64,000 bases of DNA from Bacteroidia bacterium (lineage in GTDB: Bacteria > Bacteroidota > Bacteroidia > JADZBD01). The translations under genes and the position numbers were made by a program. Positions 16,892-25,916 of the stretch are shown here, one piece after another; position 1 is the first letter of the stretch; each line of letters starts with the position of its first letter. The notes beneath the pieces were generated by a model, which was given only the letters and a program-made list of their open reading frames with translations, made no database searches and was not told the origin of the DNA. The stretch spans positions 1 to 64,000 of the forward strand of contig JADZBD010000018.1 in the NCBI GenBank assembly GCA_020852255.1. Direction: 5' to 3'.

Positions 16892-19800
16892 CTATTTGTT
16901 TATTACGGCTTTATGCGTAACCGTTTGACCATGGACTGTTACCGAAATCAGGTAGATGCCGTTCGTCTCAGGAATGGAGATGGGAAGTGTCTGTTCCCCG
17001 ACCACCTCGGTGACGCTGGAAATTAACTCGCCCACCGCATCGTAAACCGATATCTGAACGGGGGTGTTGGGATCAAGACTGAATTGCAGCGAGGCAGATT
17101 TGCCGTCATTCAGAAGAAGTACTTGCCCATCGTTAAAGAACGTATTATCAACCGTTTTATTAAGCGCATCCTCACACGCGTTTTGTTCTCTGATGAAATA
17201 AAGCAGAAAGCGGTCAGGATCCTCGTTCATCCCGATAGTCACCTTAAATACGGGTGTTTCCCTGAGATCATGCACTTTTCCTGTTACCAGATCCTTGATC
17301 AGAACACATGAATACTCGTCAATATTGGATGCCCCGTTTATTGATAGTGTGTAGATACCATCTGCACCTACTTTTGCCCGAACGGGAATTACCACTACAT
17401 CTTCTATCGGGGCGAAGGCGTTTTTCACAAGCAACAGATTCCCCTGGTGAACCATGGTAAGATTGGGAGCTACTTTGTTTGGGCTCTTTACGAAGCGTGC
17501 GTCCAGTCCGTTATCGTAACCGTTCGTTGCATTTTCATCCAGATCAACAAAAATTTCATGAGAAAAAGAATTCAATTCTGAAGAGATCTTAATGGAAAGG
17601 TCGTGGATGTTAGCAACCCTGTACCAGGTAGAGGCTGTGCTGGGGGATTTTGACGACTGGGTAATATTGAGGGTTTGGCCGGAACCGGTGGCATAAACCC
17701 AGAATCCCTGGTGTGGTGCGATCATATCCCCGGCACCATACGTTATATAGTTTCCTGTATTATCATAAATGTAAAAGGAGGCATCAACGCCCGGAGATGC
17801 GGCGAGGATGGTAGACCAATCTACGAAAGCATTTTGACCGTTTCCAACCACATTTCCTCCAGGGTCCGGGGAAGCACCGGTGTAACTCAGAGAGATTGGC
17901 TGGGTGCCACTCACCGGGGTACCCGTAACATTGATTACTGAGGTTCCAAACCAATCTACCAGATCATCGCCAAGAAAAAGGGTATACCCCTGATCAGGAT
18001 CCAATGCGGTAGCTGTTGTTGTGATATTTACCCAGTCACCGGATGGTTCATCCCATTGGGTTACGGAGTAAAAAGTGGGACAGCAGGCAGTCCCATCAGG
18101 GCCTCCTACAGCACTCATGTAAATTTCATTATCCCAGTCCGCCAGGGTAGTGCCGCTAACAGGTGTAGCAAGATCAACCCAGTTGGCTGCACGGGGCGAA
18201 ATGTAACGATTCATAACATAGCCGGTGCCGGTAAAAGTGCCCGGGCCGCCAGCAATGATGGCATGTTTAAAAGCAGAGGAAGGCCAGGTGAATGATGTAC
18301 CGCCGGAGGTGGACATATTGCCGGAAGTAGGGATGTACGAATTGGAAATGGTATGGTTGCCAGCAGCCAGGGTAACGCCGGGTCCGGTATTGGCTACTTC
18401 AAAATCATAGAAGGTGTGATCCAGTCCGGCAGTAAGAATCTGAGCTCCGGAACCATTCATGGTTACTTTTCCTGAACGGGCATTGAAAGTGCTGTTCATG
18501 GCAATGAAACCAGCAACGGAGATGTTGTAATTACTGGCGCTCACATCGAGTGTTCCCGCAGAATGAGTGAAGTTACCCGTGCAGGAAATGCTGCTGGTGA
18601 GCGTCATGGTTGTAGTCGTGGATTTAATGATACTGTGAAATGTTTCTGTTCCCGCAACCGTTTTTCCTACACTAACGGATCCGGTTCCCTGGAAGAATAT
18701 GGTACTCGTTGCAGGCGAAAAAGTGCCGCCGGAGTTAACCCAGTTACGGGTCACAAAGAGAAACTGAGACCCTGAACAAGCCATGGTGCCTGCCGTAATG
18801 GTAACATCACGTCCAACGGAAATATTGGATGTAAGGGTCAGTGTACCGGTGTTGTATCGCTGAAAATTGTAAAACACCTCTGTTCCTACCAGGCGATTCA
18901 GCGTTTGCGCCCCAGTTCCTTCGAAACGAACAGCCCCTGTTCTGGGATTAAATACTCCCCCGTTATTCTGCCAGTCGCCCTGAATATAAAAAGAGTAGGG
19001 GTAGGTATTTACATCCAGCGTTCCCGAGTTAATGGTGAGATCGTCGGTGAGCCTTACATGCGTATTGAAAAGTACGGTTCCGGTACCGGAACATGTCATG
19101 TCGCGGAAGGTTTCCGTAATAGGTTTGAAAATGGTTTGCGTACCTGCACTGTTAAAAATGATATCGAATGATGTTAGATTGGCTACTCCTGAATTGTTTA
19201 CCCAGTTACCGGAAGTTGTGAAGGTAAATCCATTGCCATTCAGTGAGGTGCTTCCGTTAATAGTGGTAGTACCGGTTACTACAACATTGCCCATCAGGGT
19301 TTTTCCTCCGCCTCCTGAGAATGTCAGGTTATTATAGTTGGTGGTAGCAGGCTGTACTTGTCCAACGTATACGCCCCTATATTCAAATGTATTTGGGACT
19401 GCGCTGCAATCCAGTGTTCCAGCTATGCTATTGAAATTCCGACCGATTACGCAGGTAGATCCGGCTTCGTTAACGAAAGTGGTTCCTGCAGTGATTCCGA
19501 GGGTTTCAGAGTATAAGGTGATGGAACCAAAATTTCTGACCGTACCTGTGCCATACAGACGGATACCGCCTGGAGCATTAATAACCGTACCCGCGAGAAT
19601 GGTAGCATTATTAAAAAAAACATAATGCCCCGTGGCCGAGATTACAGCGGCCCCCTGAACAGTAGACACCCCGGTGAAATTTGTATTTCCAAGACCAGTG
19701 TATGTACCATCCACGTCCAGGTGGTTAACAATATTGAAAGTAGAACCTTTGGTAAGTGTTGCCCCAGCCAGGATCGAAAGACTTTTGCAATAGGCATACG

Positions 19801-19990
19801 CACTTGTCGAAATAGGATTTCCGGCAGTAATAACCACAGAGTCTGCCGAAGTCGGCACCTGTGCCGGAGACCAGGAGCCGGCTACATGCCAGCTTCCACC
19901 CCCGTTAGCAGAGGAGATTGTAGCTGCAATAGATTGCTGATGGATGCAAAGAACGATCAGTGCAACAGCACCAAGTGTAAATTTTCTCAT
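16892..19990 (-). CDS. Large T9SS-exported repeat protein with type A sorting domain
   Basis: 1032 residues. Signal peptide at 1-22 (ending SIAA). Residues 30-560 hold many short beta-rich repeats with motifs such as WVNSGGTFSPATSTIFFQGTG and TVNGSGAQ-like turns, a parallel beta-helix pattern common in adhesins. Residues 560-780 form a globular part (GTGYVMNRYISPRAANWVDLATP), common in Bacteroidota surface proteins. The last 75 residues (VLLLNDGKSASLQFSLDP... GIYLISVTVHGQTVTHKAVINK) match the type IX secretion C-terminal domain that directs export through the Por system and attachment or release. A weak promoter box (20014-20007) lies upstream. It ends 17 bases before the PID-CTERM promoter; relation to the exosortase system is unproven. 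Confidence 0.88.
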   Translation of the reverse strand: MRKFTLGAVALIVLCIHQQSIAATISSANGGGSWHVAGSWSPAQVPTSADSVVITAGNPISTSAYAYCKSLSILAGATLTKGSTFNIVNHLDVDGTYTGLGNTNFTGVSTVQGAAVISATGHYVFFNNATILAGTVINAPGGIRLYGTGTVRNFGSITLYSETLGITAGTTFVNEAGSTCVIGRNFNSIAGTLDCSAVPNTFEYRGVYVGQVQPATTNYNNLTFSGGGGKTLMGNVVVTGTTTINGSTSLNGNGFTFTTSGNWVNNSGVANLTSFDIIFNSAGTQTIFKPITETFRDMTCSGTGTVLFNTHVRLTDDLTINSGTLDVNTYPYSFYIQGDWQNNGGVFNPRTGAVRFEGTGAQTLNRLVGTEVFYNFQRYNTGTLTLTSNISVGRDVTITAGTMACSGSQFLFVTRNWVNSGGTFSPATSTIFFQGTGSVSVGKTVAGTETFHSIIKSTTTTMTLTSSISCTGNFTHSAGTLDVSASNYNISVAGFIAMNSTFNARSGKVTMNGSGAQILTAGLDHTFYDFEVANTGPGVTLAAGNHTISNSYIPTSGNMSTSGGTSFTWPSSAFKHAIIAGGPGTFTGTGYVMNRYISPRAANWVDLATPVSGTTLADWDNEIYMSAVGGPDGTACCPTFYSVTQWDEPSGDWVNITTTATALDPDQGYTLFLGDDLVDWFGTSVINVTGTPVSGTQPISLSYTGASPDPGGNVVGNGQNAFVDWSTILAASPGVDASFYIYDNTGNYITYGAGDMIAPHQGFWVYATGSGQTLNITQSSKSPSTASTWYRVANIHDLSIKISSELNSFSHEIFVDLDENATNGYDNGLDARFVKSPNKVAPNLTMVHQGNLLLVKNAFAPIEDVVVIPVRAKVGADGIYTLSINGASNIDEYSCVLIKDLVTGKVHDLRETPVFKVTIGMNEDPDRFLLYFIREQNACEDALNKTVDNTFFNDGQVLLLNDGKSASLQFSLDPNTPVQISVYDAVGELISSVTEVVGEQTLPISIPETNGIYLISVTVHGQTVTHKAVINK

Positions 19991-20189: not shown

Positions 20190-20206
20190 TACCTTTGCGG
20201 CAGATG
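20190..20206 (+). promoter_or_regulatory. Promoter of the polysaccharide locus (wzc-like gene)
   Basis: TACCTTTG at 20190-20197, CGGCAG, ATG at 20204. The leader would be about two bases. This is the first promoter of the locus. Confidence 0.65.
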
Positions 20207-22579
20207 AGTGAGTCAAGTGGTCTGATAAACCTGAACGACCTCAAAAAGGTAATCCGCCTTGCCCGGCGGAACTGGTGGGTTGTACTCCTATGTGCCGGAG
20301 TTGCGTTTTTCTCCAGTTATATCTACACACATAAAATGGAGGATATCTATGGTGTAGAGTTGCATATCTTATTAAAATCAAACGAGGAATATAATCCGGG
20401 GAGCGTGGTCGGCGAGAATTATGGGAGCTATTACGGCTACAAGTCCTTTATTGACAATGCGAATGAAACAAGAGTTATTCAGTCCTATGACCTGATCGCC
20501 AAATCAATTGACCGCCTGAATTTTGAAGTGTCTTATTTCATTCAGGGGCGCTTGAAGACCACTGAACAATTCACGGGAATGCCTTTCAGAGTCACTTTTT
20601 CTACCATCAAGCCATGGCTTTATGGTCAGATGGTCAGAATGAGGATTCTTGACGAAAAGTCTTTTTCTATTTCATATCTGAACGCAGGAACGGAAGTCAC
20701 TAAGGAAGGACGGTTTAATGAGGAACTGATAGATACTGACTTTAATATATTGGTATCCCTCTCACCTACATTCACTAAAGAGTCATTGGCAAAATTGTCA
20801 GACATAGAGTACCTCTTCCGGATCAACCGGAAGGAGGACCTTATAAATCAGTTCAAGTATTCACTGGAAGTAGAGACACCTGATTATACGAATGTTCTTA
20901 TTTTGAGATTGAAGGATGTTATTTCAGAAAGAGCCAGGTTGTTTTTGGATACTTTATCAAAAGTATATATCGAAAATACCGTGAAAACGCGGTTGGATTT
21001 GAATGAAAACACACTGAAATATATCCAGAGACAAATGACAGAGGTGGTGACGGCCCTCGACACCATTGAAGATACGCTGATGCAGTACCGTGAAATCAAT
21101 AATATCCTTGATCTTGAAAAGGAAAGCCAGGAGTTTTTTGACAAAATGAGTACTTACCAGGAAAAACGGACCAAGTTGAATCTGGAATTGGAGGCTTTGA
21201 AGGATCTGGAAAAGTACATCATCGAGGATAAAGATCCGGAATTTCTTCCCCCCTCTGCTTATATCAGCATTACGGATGGATTCCTTCAGAAGAGCACGAC
21301 TGAACTGTATCGTCTCCAGCTAACAAAAAATGAAATGCTGGTGAGTCAAACGAAGGATAACCCGGCCTTTAGCGCTCTGGAGGGCAGAATACTGGAATTT
21401 AAAAGGATACTGCTGGTATATATTTCCAATTCCAGGAAAGCTACCAAAGAGGCCATGGCCAATGTGGAGACCGAAATCAACAAGTTTGTTACCAGTCTTA
21501 AAACCATTCCGGTTAAATCCCGTGGGGTAAACAACATTCGCCGTAAGCTCGGAGTAAATGAAAATCTCTACACGTTTCTTTTACAGAAAAAAGCAACAAC
21601 TGAAATTGCCAAAGCCAGTATCATCCCGGAAACCAAGGTAATTGAACAGGCGCGCTCGATGGGTATTGTGAGCCCGGACAAACCAAAGATCAGGTATTCT
21701 TTTCTGCTTGGCGGACTTCTTATAGGGCTGCTGATTACTTTCATCCGAATATTCTTTTTCGCACGAATTGAGAATTTCCAGGATCTGAAAGAAAACACGA
21801 ATCTGCCGCTGATCGGAGAGGTGGTTCACACTTCCGGGGTAGAGAACTTCAAGATTGCCCTGGATTCTCATCCAAAATCAGCACTTGCGGAATGCTTCAG
21901 GTCTATTCGTACCAACATACAGTATGTGCCGGTGGATCAGGAGCACAGAACCATCCTGATCACCTCCGGAGGTCCGGGTGAAGGGAAGACTTTTTGCAGT
22001 ATGAACCTGGGTTATATTCTGGCGAAAGCGGGGAAAAAGGTTATTCTGCTCGAATTTGATCTTCATAAGCCGAGGATACAAAAGAGTTTGCAGATGGAGG
22101 CGGATGTAGGTATTTCAACCATCGTGGTGGGTAGAACTACCATTGCAGAAAGCATTAAGAAAACCGAATTTGAGAATCTGGATGTACTCCTGTCCGGCCC
22201 CATTTCGCCTAATCCCTCCGAACTTCTTTTGTCACAACGTATACAGGACATATTCGATTATTGTAATAATCACTACGACTACGTTATTGTCGATACGGCA
22301 CCCATTGGGCTTATTTCAGATGCCCTTGTTTTGATGAAATTCTCCGACATCAAGTTGTTTGTTCTGAGTACCAGGTTTGCAAGACCCGATTCGGTGAAAA
22401 GCGTGAATGAATTGGTAAGCGCCAATCAGATTCGGAATTTCTTCTTCCTGTTGAATTCTGTTAAACAGCGCCGGTCACGGTATTATTACAGCAGGTATGG
22501 CTATGGCTACGGTTACGGTTACGGCTACGGCTACGGTTACGGCTATGGTTATGGGAAAGACACTTCTGGTAAAGCCTAA
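20204..22579 (+). CDS. Wzc-like polysaccharide co-polymerase / tyrosine autokinase
   Basis: 791 residues. N-terminal Wzz-like part with a helix at about 24-43 (NWWVVLLCAGVAFFSSYIYT), a long periplasmic coiled-coil region, and a second helix near 505-530 (SFLLGGLLIGLLITFIRIFFF). The cytoplasmic BY-kinase domain has Walker A GGPGEGKTFCSMN, Walker A' VILLEFDLHKPRI (the usual DxD is EFD) and Walker B VIVDTAPIG. The tail is tyrosine-rich: RYYYSRYG followed by ten Tyr-Gly pairs, the expected site of autophosphorylation. Wzc controls chain length and export of capsular or exopolysaccharide. An in-frame TTG at 20195 is rejected because it lies inside the promoter box. Confidence 0.92.
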   Translation: MSESSGLINLNDLKKVIRLARRNWWVVLLCAGVAFFSSYIYTHKMEDIYGVELHILLKSNEEYNPGSVVGENYGSYYGYKSFIDNANETRVIQSYDLIAKSIDRLNFEVSYFIQGRLKTTEQFTGMPFRVTFSTIKPWLYGQMVRMRILDEKSFSISYLNAGTEVTKEGRFNEELIDTDFNILVSLSPTFTKESLAKLSDIEYLFRINRKEDLINQFKYSLEVETPDYTNVLILRLKDVISERARLFLDTLSKVYIENTVKTRLDLNENTLKYIQRQMTEVVTALDTIEDTLMQYREINNILDLEKESQEFFDKMSTYQEKRTKLNLELEALKDLEKYIIEDKDPEFLPPSAYISITDGFLQKSTTELYRLQLTKNEMLVSQTKDNPAFSALEGRILEFKRILLVYISNSRKATKEAMANVETEINKFVTSLKTIPVKSRGVNNIRRKLGVNENLYTFLLQKKATTEIAKASIIPETKVIEQARSMGIVSPDKPKIRYSFLLGGLLIGLLITFIRIFFFARIENFQDLKENTNLPLIGEVVHTSGVENFKIALDSHPKSALAECFRSIRTNIQYVPVDQEHRTILITSGGPGEGKTFCSMNLGYILAKAGKKVILLEFDLHKPRIQKSLQMEADVGISTIVVGRTTIAESIKKTEFENLDVLLSGPISPNPSELLLSQRIQDIFDYCNNHYDYVIVDTAPIGLISDALVLMKFSDIKLFVLSTRFARPDSVKSVNELVSANQIRNFFFLLNSVKQRRSRYYYSRYGYGYGYGYGYGYGYGYGYGKDTSGKA
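22496..22555 (+). repeat. Hexanucleotide tandem repeat encoding (Tyr-Gly)10
   Basis: Ten units of TAYGGN encode alternating Tyr-Gly at the end of the tyrosine kinase. Third positions vary between units (TAT/TAC, GGC/GGT/GGG), so the repeat is imperfect at DNA level but perfect at protein level. Confidence 0.9.
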
Positions 22580-22648
22580 CGATCTGTAGATCAGCAATTA
22601 ACACACGCATCTTCCCTTTACTGTAACTTAATGATGGTAGATTTCGTA

Positions 22649-22679
22649 CATTTATGAGTAATTTAATTACTCATAAATG
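22649..22679 (+). promoter_or_regulatory. Perfect 31-bp palindrome over promoter and start codon of the regulator gene
   Basis: Arms CATTTATGAGTAATT (22649-22663) and AATTACTCATAAATG (22665-22679) are exact reverse complements around a central T at 22664. The right arm ends with the ATG start codon. The left arm overlaps TACATTTA (22647-22654), a 7-of-8 match to the -7 box, so the presumed transcription start also lies inside. It is most likely an operator for autoregulation by the winged-helix product. Confidence 0.75.
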
Positions 22680-23207
22680 ATAGGAACATTAGTATCGTCA
22701 AAGACCAGGATCAAGCTTCTCCTGAAATTTTTTCTGAACTCAAACAACACGGCCTATCTCCGGAATCTTGAGGAGGAGTTTGGAGAGTCGACCAATGGTA
22801 TCCGTTTGGAACTCAACCGGTTTGAGGACGCCGGCTTCCTGGAATCTTATTCCAGCGGTAACAAGAAAATGTTCAGGGTTAACAAGCTGCACCCGCTGTT
22901 CAAGGATATTCACAGCATTGTTTTAAAGGTAGTCGGGCTCGACAAGGTGTATGAATATATCCTGCAGAGGATAGGATCCCTGGAAAAGGTCTATCTGGTC
23001 GGCAAGCTGGCACGGGGCCAGGATTCAGACATCATTGACCTGGTGCTGGTTGGGAAAATTGACAAGGTATATCTCCTTGAACTTATTGAAAAAGCGGAGA
23101 AAAAAATGGACAAGAAGATCCGCTTTATTCACTTTGAAGTTGCCGAATTCGACTTGAGTAAGATTTCGGAGCCGGGTCTGGACCCACTCCTGGTTTGGGA
23201 AAAGTAG
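22677..23207 (+). CDS. Winged-helix regulator with degenerate nucleotidyltransferase-like domain
   Basis: 176 residues. Residues 1-70 are an ArsR-like winged helix (RIKLLLKFFLNSNNTAYLRNLEEEF...LNRFEDAGFLES). Residues 90-170 resemble a small nucleotidyltransferase fold: YLVGKLARGQDSDIIDLVLVG compares with the usual GSxARGxxxxDSDIDLLV, but GS is replaced by GK and an extra isoleucine breaks the DxD metal pair, so catalysis is unlikely. Proteins of this layout occur at polysaccharide loci of Bacteroidota. The gene's start codon lies inside a 31-bp palindrome, which suggests direct autorepression. It stands between the Wzc-like gene and the antiterminator gene; target genes beyond itself are inferred. 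Confidence 0.75.
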   Translation: MIGTLVSSKTRIKLLLKFFLNSNNTAYLRNLEEEFGESTNGIRLELNRFEDAGFLESYSSGNKKMFRVNKLHPLFKDIHSIVLKVVGLDKVYEYILQRIGSLEKVYLVGKLARGQDSDIIDLVLVGKIDKVYLLELIEKAEKKMDKKIRFIHFEVAEFDLSKISEPGLDPLLVWEK

Positions 23208-23296: not shown

Positions 23297-23794
23297 GTGA
23301 AAAAGTGGTATGTATTGTATGTAAATGTCCGTCATGAGAAGAAAGTGATGGAACGCCTGACACAAGCAGGTCTTGAAGCGTATGTTCCGCTTGTTAGTCG
23401 TGTGAGGCAATGGAGCGATCGGCGAAAAAAGATTGAAGAACCCTTATTCACGGGCTATGCTTTTGTAAAACTGCTTTCGCAAGAGTTCGACAAGCCAAGG
23501 TACATCCCAGGTGTGATTAATTACCTCTCCTTTGAGGGAAAGCCATCAGTGGTCACTGATAGGGAGATAGATGCGCTGAAATTTTTTGTCACTCATGGTT
23601 ACGATCTTGAGTGTGAAGAAACCGAATTCCTTCCCGGCGATAAGGCGATACTCAACCTGGGTCAGTTCCGGAATCTTCCCGCAGAGATCGATCAGATCAT
23701 TGGCAAGGGGTATGCTTATGTATCTTTCGATGGAATGAAAAAGAACATCCGTATCAAAGCTCCGATCGGAGCACTGAAACCGGCAAGAAAATAA
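23297..23794 (+). CDS. UpxY/NusG-family transcription antiterminator
   Basis: 165 residues, GTG start. The N-terminal NGN domain begins KKWYVLYVNVRHEKKVMERL and has YVPLVSRVRQWSDRRKKIEEPLFTGYAFVKL. The C-terminal KOW domain starts at GDKAILNLGQFRNLPAEIDQI. Bacteroides UpxY proteins bind elongating RNA polymerase at the start of capsule operons and prevent premature termination. Placement just before the export and biosynthesis genes is the typical one. The 89-base leader upstream contains short hairpins. The next gene starts at the last base of its stop codon (TAATG). Confidence 0.92.
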   Translation: MKKWYVLYVNVRHEKKVMERLTQAGLEAYVPLVSRVRQWSDRRKKIEEPLFTGYAFVKLLSQEFDKPRYIPGVINYLSFEGKPSVVTDREIDALKFFVTHGYDLECEETEFLPGDKAILNLGQFRNLPAEIDQIIGKGYAYVSFDGMKKNIRIKAPIGALKPARK

Positions 23795-24642
23795 TGGGAA
23801 AGAGTGCCTGGGATATAGAAATAAGTCCTCGTTCCGGATGGATGGTCCTCCCCATACGCGAAGTTTGGCGATACCGCGACCTTGTTGGATTGCTGGTTCG
23901 CAGGGATTTCGTGGCAAACTACAAGCAAACTATTTTAGGTCCCTTATGGATTGTGCTTCAACCGGTAATCACTTCGCTCACATTTGTGATTATTTTCAGC
24001 CGGATTGCAAATATTCCCACCGATGGCGTTCCCTCCATACTATTTTATCTTGCTGGCATTACGTGGTGGTCATACTTCGCTGATTGTCTTGTGAAAACTT
24101 CGGGCACCTTTATTGCCAACGCCAATGTCTTTGGCAAGGTATACTTTCCGAGGATTATCATGCCCCTTTCTGTTGTGATTTCAAATCTCGTGAAGTTGTC
24201 TATACAAACATTGGTTTTTACTATTATTTGGTTGTATTATCTCTTCAGAGACGGGAACATCACTCCACACTATCAGTTGCTTTGGCTGATCCCCGTTTTG
24301 ATTCTGATTCTTGGTGTGATGGGGATGGGAGCAGGCATTCTTATTTCATCTTTAACTACCCGTTATCGTGATCTGGCATTTCTTGTGGGCTTCGGTGTAC
24401 AGTTGCTGATGTATCTTTCACCTGTGGTGTATCCGCTTTCTGTTGCCGGAGAGGAAGCTTCTTCGGTGCTGTTACTGAATCCTATTGCATCTGTTCTCGA
24501 AGCGTTCAAATATATCTTCCTTGGAAAGGGTTTTTTTAGTTTTGCCGCATTAGCATATAGTGCATGCTTCGCTTCAGGAATACTTATTGCCGGCTTGCTT
24601 GTATTCAATAAAGTTGAAAAGTCCTTCATGGATACAGTATGA
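23794..24642 (+). CDS. ABC-2 type polysaccharide export permease (Wzm-like)
   Basis: 282 residues, six transmembrane helices spread over residues 55-275. The N-terminal IREVWRYRDLVGLLVRRDFVANYKQTILGPLW is the cytoplasmic amphipathic part conserved in O-antigen and teichoic acid export permeases, and GAGILISSLTTRYRDLAFLVGFGVQLLMYLSPVVYP is the family signature. It forms the channel that moves a completed lipid-linked glycan across the inner membrane. It overlaps the ATPase gene that follows (ATGA). Confidence 0.92.
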   Translation: MGKSAWDIEISPRSGWMVLPIREVWRYRDLVGLLVRRDFVANYKQTILGPLWIVLQPVITSLTFVIIFSRIANIPTDGVPSILFYLAGITWWSYFADCLVKTSGTFIANANVFGKVYFPRIIMPLSVVISNLVKLSIQTLVFTIIWLYYLFRDGNITPHYQLLWLIPVLILILGVMGMGAGILISSLTTRYRDLAFLVGFGVQLLMYLSPVVYPLSVAGEEASSVLLLNPIASVLEAFKYIFLGKGFFSFAALAYSACFASGILIAGLLVFNKVEKSFMDTV

Positions 24643-25916
24643 ATAGGCCAACTGTCATACAAGTAGAGAGCATTTCAAAGCAATATCGTTTAGGCGTGCT
24701 GGGTACGGGTACCTTTACCCGCGACGTCAGTTCATGGTGGGCCCGCGTTCGTGGAGAAGAAGATCCGAACAGCAAAATCGGAGAAGTGAACGATCGCACA
24801 GTCAAAGGAAAATCCGGCCTGGTATGGGCGCTTCGGGATATTAATTTTGAAGTAAAGCAAGGTGATGTGCTGGGAATCGTCGGAAAAAATGGTGCCGGGA
24901 AATCAACGCTCCTTAAGATCCTCTCCAGAACAACATCTCCCACCACAGGAAGAATTAGAGTGAAGGGAAGAATTGCGAGCCTGCTGGAGGTTGGAACAGG
25001 ATTTCATCCGGAACTCACCGGGCGTGAAAATGTCTTTCTTAATGGTGCTATTCTTGGAATGACCAGAGCGGAAATTCGCTCAAAATTTGATGAAATCGTG
25101 GATTTCAGCGGAGTAACGAGATATATTGATACGCCGGTTAAACGCTATTCTTCTGGAATGTACGTGCGGCTTGCCTTCGCCGTGGCCGCTCACCTGGAGC
25201 CGGAGATCCTTGTAGTAGATGAGGTGCTGGCCGTGGGCGATTTCGAGTTCCAGACCAAATGTCTGGGTAAAATGAAAAAAGTATCACAGGAAGGACGTAC
25301 GGTTCTTTTCGTAAGTCATAATCTGACTGCTGTACGGAACTTGTGTAATACGGGCTTATTGCTGAAAAACGGAGAGGTGGATTATTTGGGAGGTGTCTCA
25401 GAGGTTATTGATCGCTATATTGGAAAATCCAGTCTGCAGGACAGGCCTGTTTTCAAAGCAGCTGAGCAGCCGGGCAAGGAGGCTCAGATCCTCGAAGTCC
25501 GGCTAGAACCTGGCGCTTCTGGTTATTTTGATATCGCAGGTGAATTCAAAGTGTTTGTGCGGTTTAAAGTTAATGCCCCGATAACAGGACTTGCAGCCGG
25601 ATTTTCTATTGCAAGAGCGGATAGTACCGAACCTGTACTTGCCTCGAATGAAGCGGAACTGAATCCGGAATCGCTGAAGCTCCGGATCCCGGGTGTTTAT
25701 GAAAGCACAATTAAGGTTCCGTCAATGATTCTCAATTCTGGGCTTTACACGATCAGGGTTGGGCTAACAGCTCAGCGGCAGATTTATTCCGTGGTGGATG
25801 ATCTGCTTTTTGATTTGAAAGATTCAGCGGGTATTTTTTTAAAGCTGGGCTATGAAAGGAAGAACGCCATCCTGTCTACTCAATTGCCATGGGAAACTAA
25901 ATGGATCGAACAATGA
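24639..25916 (+). CDS. ABC polysaccharide exporter ATPase with glycan-binding domain (Wzt-like)
   Basis: 425 residues. ATPase domain: Walker A GKNGAGKSTLLK, Q-loop-region VGTGFHPELTGRENVFLNGAILGM (typical of Wzt), signature YSSGMYVRLAFAVAAHL, Walker B ILVVDEVLAVGD, and switch histidine in LFVSHN. An insert of about 40 residues (GTGTFTRDVSSWWARVRGEED) precedes the first core strand. The C-terminal 160 residues form a beta-rich domain (AQILEVRLE, GEFKVFVRFKVNAP) like the Wzt-C domain that recognises the chain end of the glycan in E. coli O8/O9a. Presence of this domain suggests the exported chain carries a terminal cap, fitting the many methyltransferases downstream. Confidence 0.9.
   Translation: MNRPTVIQVESISKQYRLGVLGTGTFTRDVSSWWARVRGEEDPNSKIGEVNDRTVKGKSGLVWALRDINFEVKQGDVLGIVGKNGAGKSTLLKILSRTTSPTTGRIRVKGRIASLLEVGTGFHPELTGRENVFLNGAILGMTRAEIRSKFDEIVDFSGVTRYIDTPVKRYSSGMYVRLAFAVAAHLEPEILVVDEVLAVGDFEFQTKCLGKMKKVSQEGRTVLFVSHNLTAVRNLCNTGLLLKNGEVDYLGGVSEVIDRYIGKSSLQDRPVFKAAEQPGKEAQILEVRLEPGASGYFDIAGEFKVFVRFKVNAPITGLAAGFSIARADSTEPVLASNEAELNPESLKLRIPGVYESTIKVPSMILNSGLYTIRVGLTAQRQIYSVVDDLLFDLKDSAGIFLKLGYERKNAILSTQLPWETKWIEQ

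Follow-up and report, generated by a model that had tools for sequence, protein, structure and literature searches.

A conserved inverted repeat at the promoter of a putative winged-helix regulator, and its probable role as an operator of Bacteroidota polysaccharide genes

What is the function of a long perfect palindrome that takes in the start codon of a gene? The window analysed here (the whole stretch of 64,000 nucleotides from a Bacteroidia bacterium) contains CATTTATGAGTAATT-T-AATTACTCATAAATG at 22649–22679, in which 15 of 15 bases are complementary around a 1-nt centre, as a preliminary description had claimed. This 31-bp repeat ranked first among the 14 inverted repeats of the window and, with up to three mismatches allowed, occurred once compared with zero expected in shuffled sequence, bearing out the claim that chance occurrence is negligible. 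Its 19-bp core is found in a single place in the 3.28-Mb genome. The right arm includes the ATG (22677–22679) of a 176-aa protein encoded on the forward strand (22677–23207), and this start codon is right because homologues begin at the same residue (MIxTLISSKTR). Two functions had been proposed for the palindrome: an operator for autorepression by this protein, or an RNA hairpin that hides the start codon.

Homologues, a profile search and a structural model indicate that the protein combines a winged helix with a degenerate nucleotidyltransferase-like domain. It had no Pfam match at E values up to 1 and no match to an NCBIfam HTH family. The AlphaFold2 model (pLDDT 86.7) has a predicted winged-helix DNA-binding fold at residues about 9–68 as well as an alpha/beta domain. 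Its best Foldseek match in the PDB was the repressor AntR (E = 3.5e-4), with other ArsR-type proteins and MntA nucleotidyltransferases also among the matches; fold scores were modest, at a TM of about 0.4 relative to the query, since each match covers a single domain. Residues 38–53, a stretch containing the predicted recognition helix, rank with the best conserved in the homologues. By profile, the C-terminal domain weakly matched 2rff (E = 3e-5). Across 40 homologues the GS...DxD catalytic signature is not kept, the GS serine being absent and the first aspartate variable, so transferase activity is improbable for the domain, which may bind a ligand or partner. The 176 residues include no cysteine, and no cysteine-based metal or thiol sensor site was found among them. 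We found no description of the regulator or its motif in the part of the literature covered, a weak indication in itself; the family is apparently undescribed, its kind of mechanism being already known.

A core of the palindrome accompanies this gene across the phylum. Searching GTDB genomes with the 176-aa protein yielded 66 loci, and [TC]GAGTA-N7-TACTC, with at most one mismatch, was present upstream in all 66. The same was true of 29 of 29 loci inspected from a separate genome sample (in L100 only at −926). By chance, a site with at most one mismatch would be expected in 1.8% of 1.4-kb upstream regions, and an exact site in 0.15%. The motifs of the first 66 loci lie mostly 20–29 nt before the start codon, others at 32–160 nt and a few far upstream (−528 in L050, −784 in L055 and −1288 in L060, where a UpxY gene stands between motif and regulator). 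Six loci found later had the motif in five cases (four within 300 nt, one at −1482), with none within 1.5 kb upstream in the sixth (L149). Autogenous operators are characterised by a conserved dyad where the regulator's gene or operon has its promoter, and such a dyad was present in 95 of 95 loci and then in 5 of 6.

The separate sample, a draw of 396 Bacteroidota genomes, included 51 (about 13%) with the regulator gene at strong E-values and 59 at E = 1e-3. Tallied by hand from match tables, the strict motif occurred in 33 of the 51 genomes with the gene versus 32 of the 345 without it (Fisher p = 1e-17); spacer-6 patterns matched 3 of 37 and 15 of 38 genomes, which serve as a rough background only. 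Exact half-sites separated by 7 nt were found within 300 nt of the start codon in 55 of 66 loci, and none of the 66 had them at any other spacer from 0 to 20.

Conservation is confined to the core, TGAGTA-N7-TACTCA, which occupies 22655–22673 of the window (half-sites GAGTA at 22656–22660 and TACTC at 22668–22672) and precedes the gene in all 95 of the homologue loci first examined, with a spacer of 7. The outer 6–7 bp and the symmetric centre, to which this copy owes its perfection, are locus-specific, and re-pairing left and right arms between loci gave about 0.04 such perfect sites per 96. The preliminary description had named conserved arms with a variable spacer in related genomes as support for an operator; the arms are indeed conserved within the core, whereas the spacer varies only in sequence and is always 7 nt long. 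Sites with A-rich centres, L016 (GAGTAATAAAACTACTC) among them, are reverse complements of forms present at other loci (GAGTAGTTTTATTACTC in L013), so that one asymmetric sequence serves in both directions. A protein that recognises double-stranded DNA would be expected to allow both orientations; an RNA loop would not.

The motif is also tied to promoter elements. The Bacteroidota sigma-A consensus is reported as TAnnTTTG at −12 to −5 (PMC9723704), and B. fragilis promoters carry TTTG near −33 (PMC7366714). In 36 of 96 sites, the commonest assignable class, this −7 box lies inside the motif (GAG-TAATTTTG-TTACTC), and 29 of these 36 have TTG at −21 to −18, the proper −33 distance, compared with 3–5 in background windows. 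The box lies on the left arm in 9 sites (4 with TTG at −31 to −28) and 15–18 nt upstream in another 9 (4 with TTG at −40 to −36). The TTG positions in the three classes thus indicate that the −33 element and the −7 box shift together and the dyad does not move. Promoter arrangements change repeatedly along the tree of regulators, with the commonest class showing 15 changes, and the motif stays. To judge from the sequences compared, the site tracks the promoter and not the start codon; with respect to the −7 box it takes at least three positions.

No perfect −7 box could be placed in 42 of the 96 sites, the window's included. Here, two forward-strand candidates read from the sequence each have one mismatch to TAnnTTTG: the uncertain TACATTTA (22647–22654) and, alternatively, TAGATTTC (22638–22645), which sits at offset −18 as in L016, L073, L076 and L080. 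No upstream TTTG or TTG was found at the proper distance from either candidate. The earlier proposal that the palindrome covers both the ATG and the −7 box therefore holds for the ATG and is less certain for the box.

If the palindrome instead acted as an RNA, its transcript would fold and hide the start codon, placing control at translation. The window's RNA does fold strongly (−25.5 kcal/mol, z = −5.1), with the ATG within the stem, and a transcription start near 22650 would take in both arms. In the commonest assignable class, however, the −7 box within the motif would start transcription in the right arm and leave the left arm untranscribed, and the distance from motif to ATG is not kept, ranging from 20 to about 1480 nt. 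The stem letters are, moreover, nearly invariant between loci. Outer-arm covariation, considered as a sign of an RNA stem, was weak at most (z about 2 for Watson–Crick pairs across all sites) and not significant with G–U pairs allowed or in the close set. We regard control by a hairpin as very improbable. Of the two functions first proposed, the operator is supported, strongly so by the arms conserved in related genomes, and the hairpin is not supported as a conserved function; a 5′ hairpin in the window is possible as a side effect of the operator, the transcription start there not being fixed.

The palindrome stands at the head of a large gene cluster. By the ORF map, a one-directional run of some 29 genes, most of them abutting, occupies 22677–50245 of the forward strand. 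The run opens with the regulator, followed by a UpxY-family transcription antiterminator, a NusG paralogue (23297–23794; NF033644, 109.7 bits against a cut-off of 100), and then by ABC exporter permease and ATPase genes (23794–25916), named as polysaccharide export type from sequence and neighbourhood. ABC exporter genes likewise follow the regulator in many homologue loci. The run appears to be a polysaccharide operon with the putative operator at its head, presumably transcribed as a single unit. Upstream, on the same strand, lies a gene for a Wzc-like chain-length regulator/tyrosine kinase (20195–22579; TIGR01007, 153 bits against a cut-off of 108), whose product ends in a long YGYGYGYG repeat (22490–22560), presumably a tyrosine-rich tail. 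A large secreted-looking protein of 1032 aa is encoded on the reverse strand (16892–19990), divergent from the polysaccharide genes.

Antiterminators related to UpxY are recruited by leader elements, and in many loci a UpxY gene comes after the regulator, which raises the question of whether the motif could be a recruitment site for the neighbouring UpxY, either as an ops-like DNA element or as a LoaP-type RNA hairpin. A NusG-like gene was present in only 48 of 95 loci (some with short flanks), whereas the motif was in all 95, indicating that the motif goes with the regulator rather than with UpxY. A motif–UpxY link was set aside with UpxY nearby in only about half of the loci. Recruitment of UpxY is also at odds with the motif's place on the promoter, where part of it precedes the transcribed region, and with its occurrence in both orientations, and the transcribed, conserved pairing typical of RNA leader hairpins for NusG paralogues was not found in the motif. 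Extra sites in genus g17, described below, precede operons with no UpxY seen alongside. We consider recruitment of UpxY extremely unlikely.

In that genus (genomes G114, G149 and G232), extra sites lie before an operon of UDPG_MGDP_dh, Poly_export and chain-length genes, the first encoding a nucleotide-sugar dehydrogenase, and also precede GDP-sugar genes. At L134 (3231 and 4017) and L137, also of g17, a single regulator gene has two copies of the motif flanking it or nearby, which suggests that a second operator precedes the transport genes downstream. In the window's genome, the autogenous site is the only convincing one; a second match (L143) was set aside as a regulon site because it lies inside a coding frame. 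At L132, L135 and L139 the motif is just upstream of TAnnTTTG. This arrangement, seen at some extra sites, would suit an activator, and the site could also be bound by another protein that co-evolves with the locus. At most assignable sites, in contrast, the motif overlaps with the −7 box or start region, as is usual for repression, and it remains linked to the regulator gene itself even where neighbours change, making activation or binding by another protein unlikely. We infer repression from the position of the motif.

Phylum-wide linkage of motif and gene, a fixed spacer, promoter overlap, occurrence in both orientations and extra copies in g17 are what the loci display. The palindrome is, in our assessment, most probably a double-stranded DNA operator at which a dimer of the regulator would repress both the regulator gene and the polysaccharide operon that UpxY leads. 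In this model, a dimer of the 22677–23207 product would bind the two GAGTA half-sites (12 bp from centre to centre) and block sigma-A RNA polymerase at the promoter, so that the regulator gene and the operon downstream would be repressed together. A signal, possibly some ligand or partner that the degenerate domain binds, would release the repressor and allow transcription, with UpxY helping polymerase to traverse roughly 27 kb. More speculatively, the dead nucleotidyltransferase domain might sense a nucleotide or nucleotide-sugar and couple sugar supply to polysaccharide operons, making the family a phylum-wide set of undescribed repressors whose operator often encloses the sigma-A −7 box; we hold this wider proposal to be possible and rather doubtful.

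What is known of surface-polysaccharide control in Bacteroidota comes largely from invertible promoters and from UpxY/UpxZ. A repressor and operator acting at the promoter, if confirmed, would supply a missing layer of this control. Polysaccharide regulons could then be sought by the sequence signature of the operator, and regulator and operator together form a concrete candidate protein–DNA pair.

Among known systems, the Bacteroides capsule operons controlled by UpxY/UpxZ and invertible promoters are the same kind of target, and here a UpxY gene is next door. Unlike those promoters, the locus has a fixed promoter dyad and a putative DNA-binding regulator, with no inversion repeats found here. 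The regulator shares its predicted winged-helix fold with ArsR/SmtB-type repressors (AntR 6uvu, SqrR and BigR); as with these, the candidate operator is a short inverted repeat overlapping the promoter, and autoregulation is proposed. It differs from them in having no Pfam HTH match, in an extra C-terminal domain, in its operator sequence and in its lack of cysteine, which leaves no classical thiol metal site.

The C-terminal alpha/beta domain matches MntA of HepT–MntA (5yep, 7bxo) and 2rff structurally, and weakly by profile. Unlike minimal nucleotidyltransferases, it is fused to a winged helix and has not conserved the GS and first catalytic aspartate, and unlike HepT–MntA, it had no toxin gene partner in the Bacteroidota loci inspected. 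A further comparison is with three distantly related Proteobacterial plasmid proteins (WP_041674343.1, WP_248889801.1 and WP_151073275.1) annotated 'nucleotidyltransferase domain-containing protein', which are about 26–30% identical to the regulator and, as read from translations, share its two-part layout. These cousins are encoded at L144:1372–1983, L145:2869–3468 and L146:2887–3498, each followed by an overlapping gene for a hypothetical protein of about 147 aa, a toxin–antitoxin-like layout. Unlike the regulator, they keep an apparently intact GS...DxD. Two of these three, L144 and L145, have inverted repeats at their own start regions, with a different palindrome (CCCA..TGGG).
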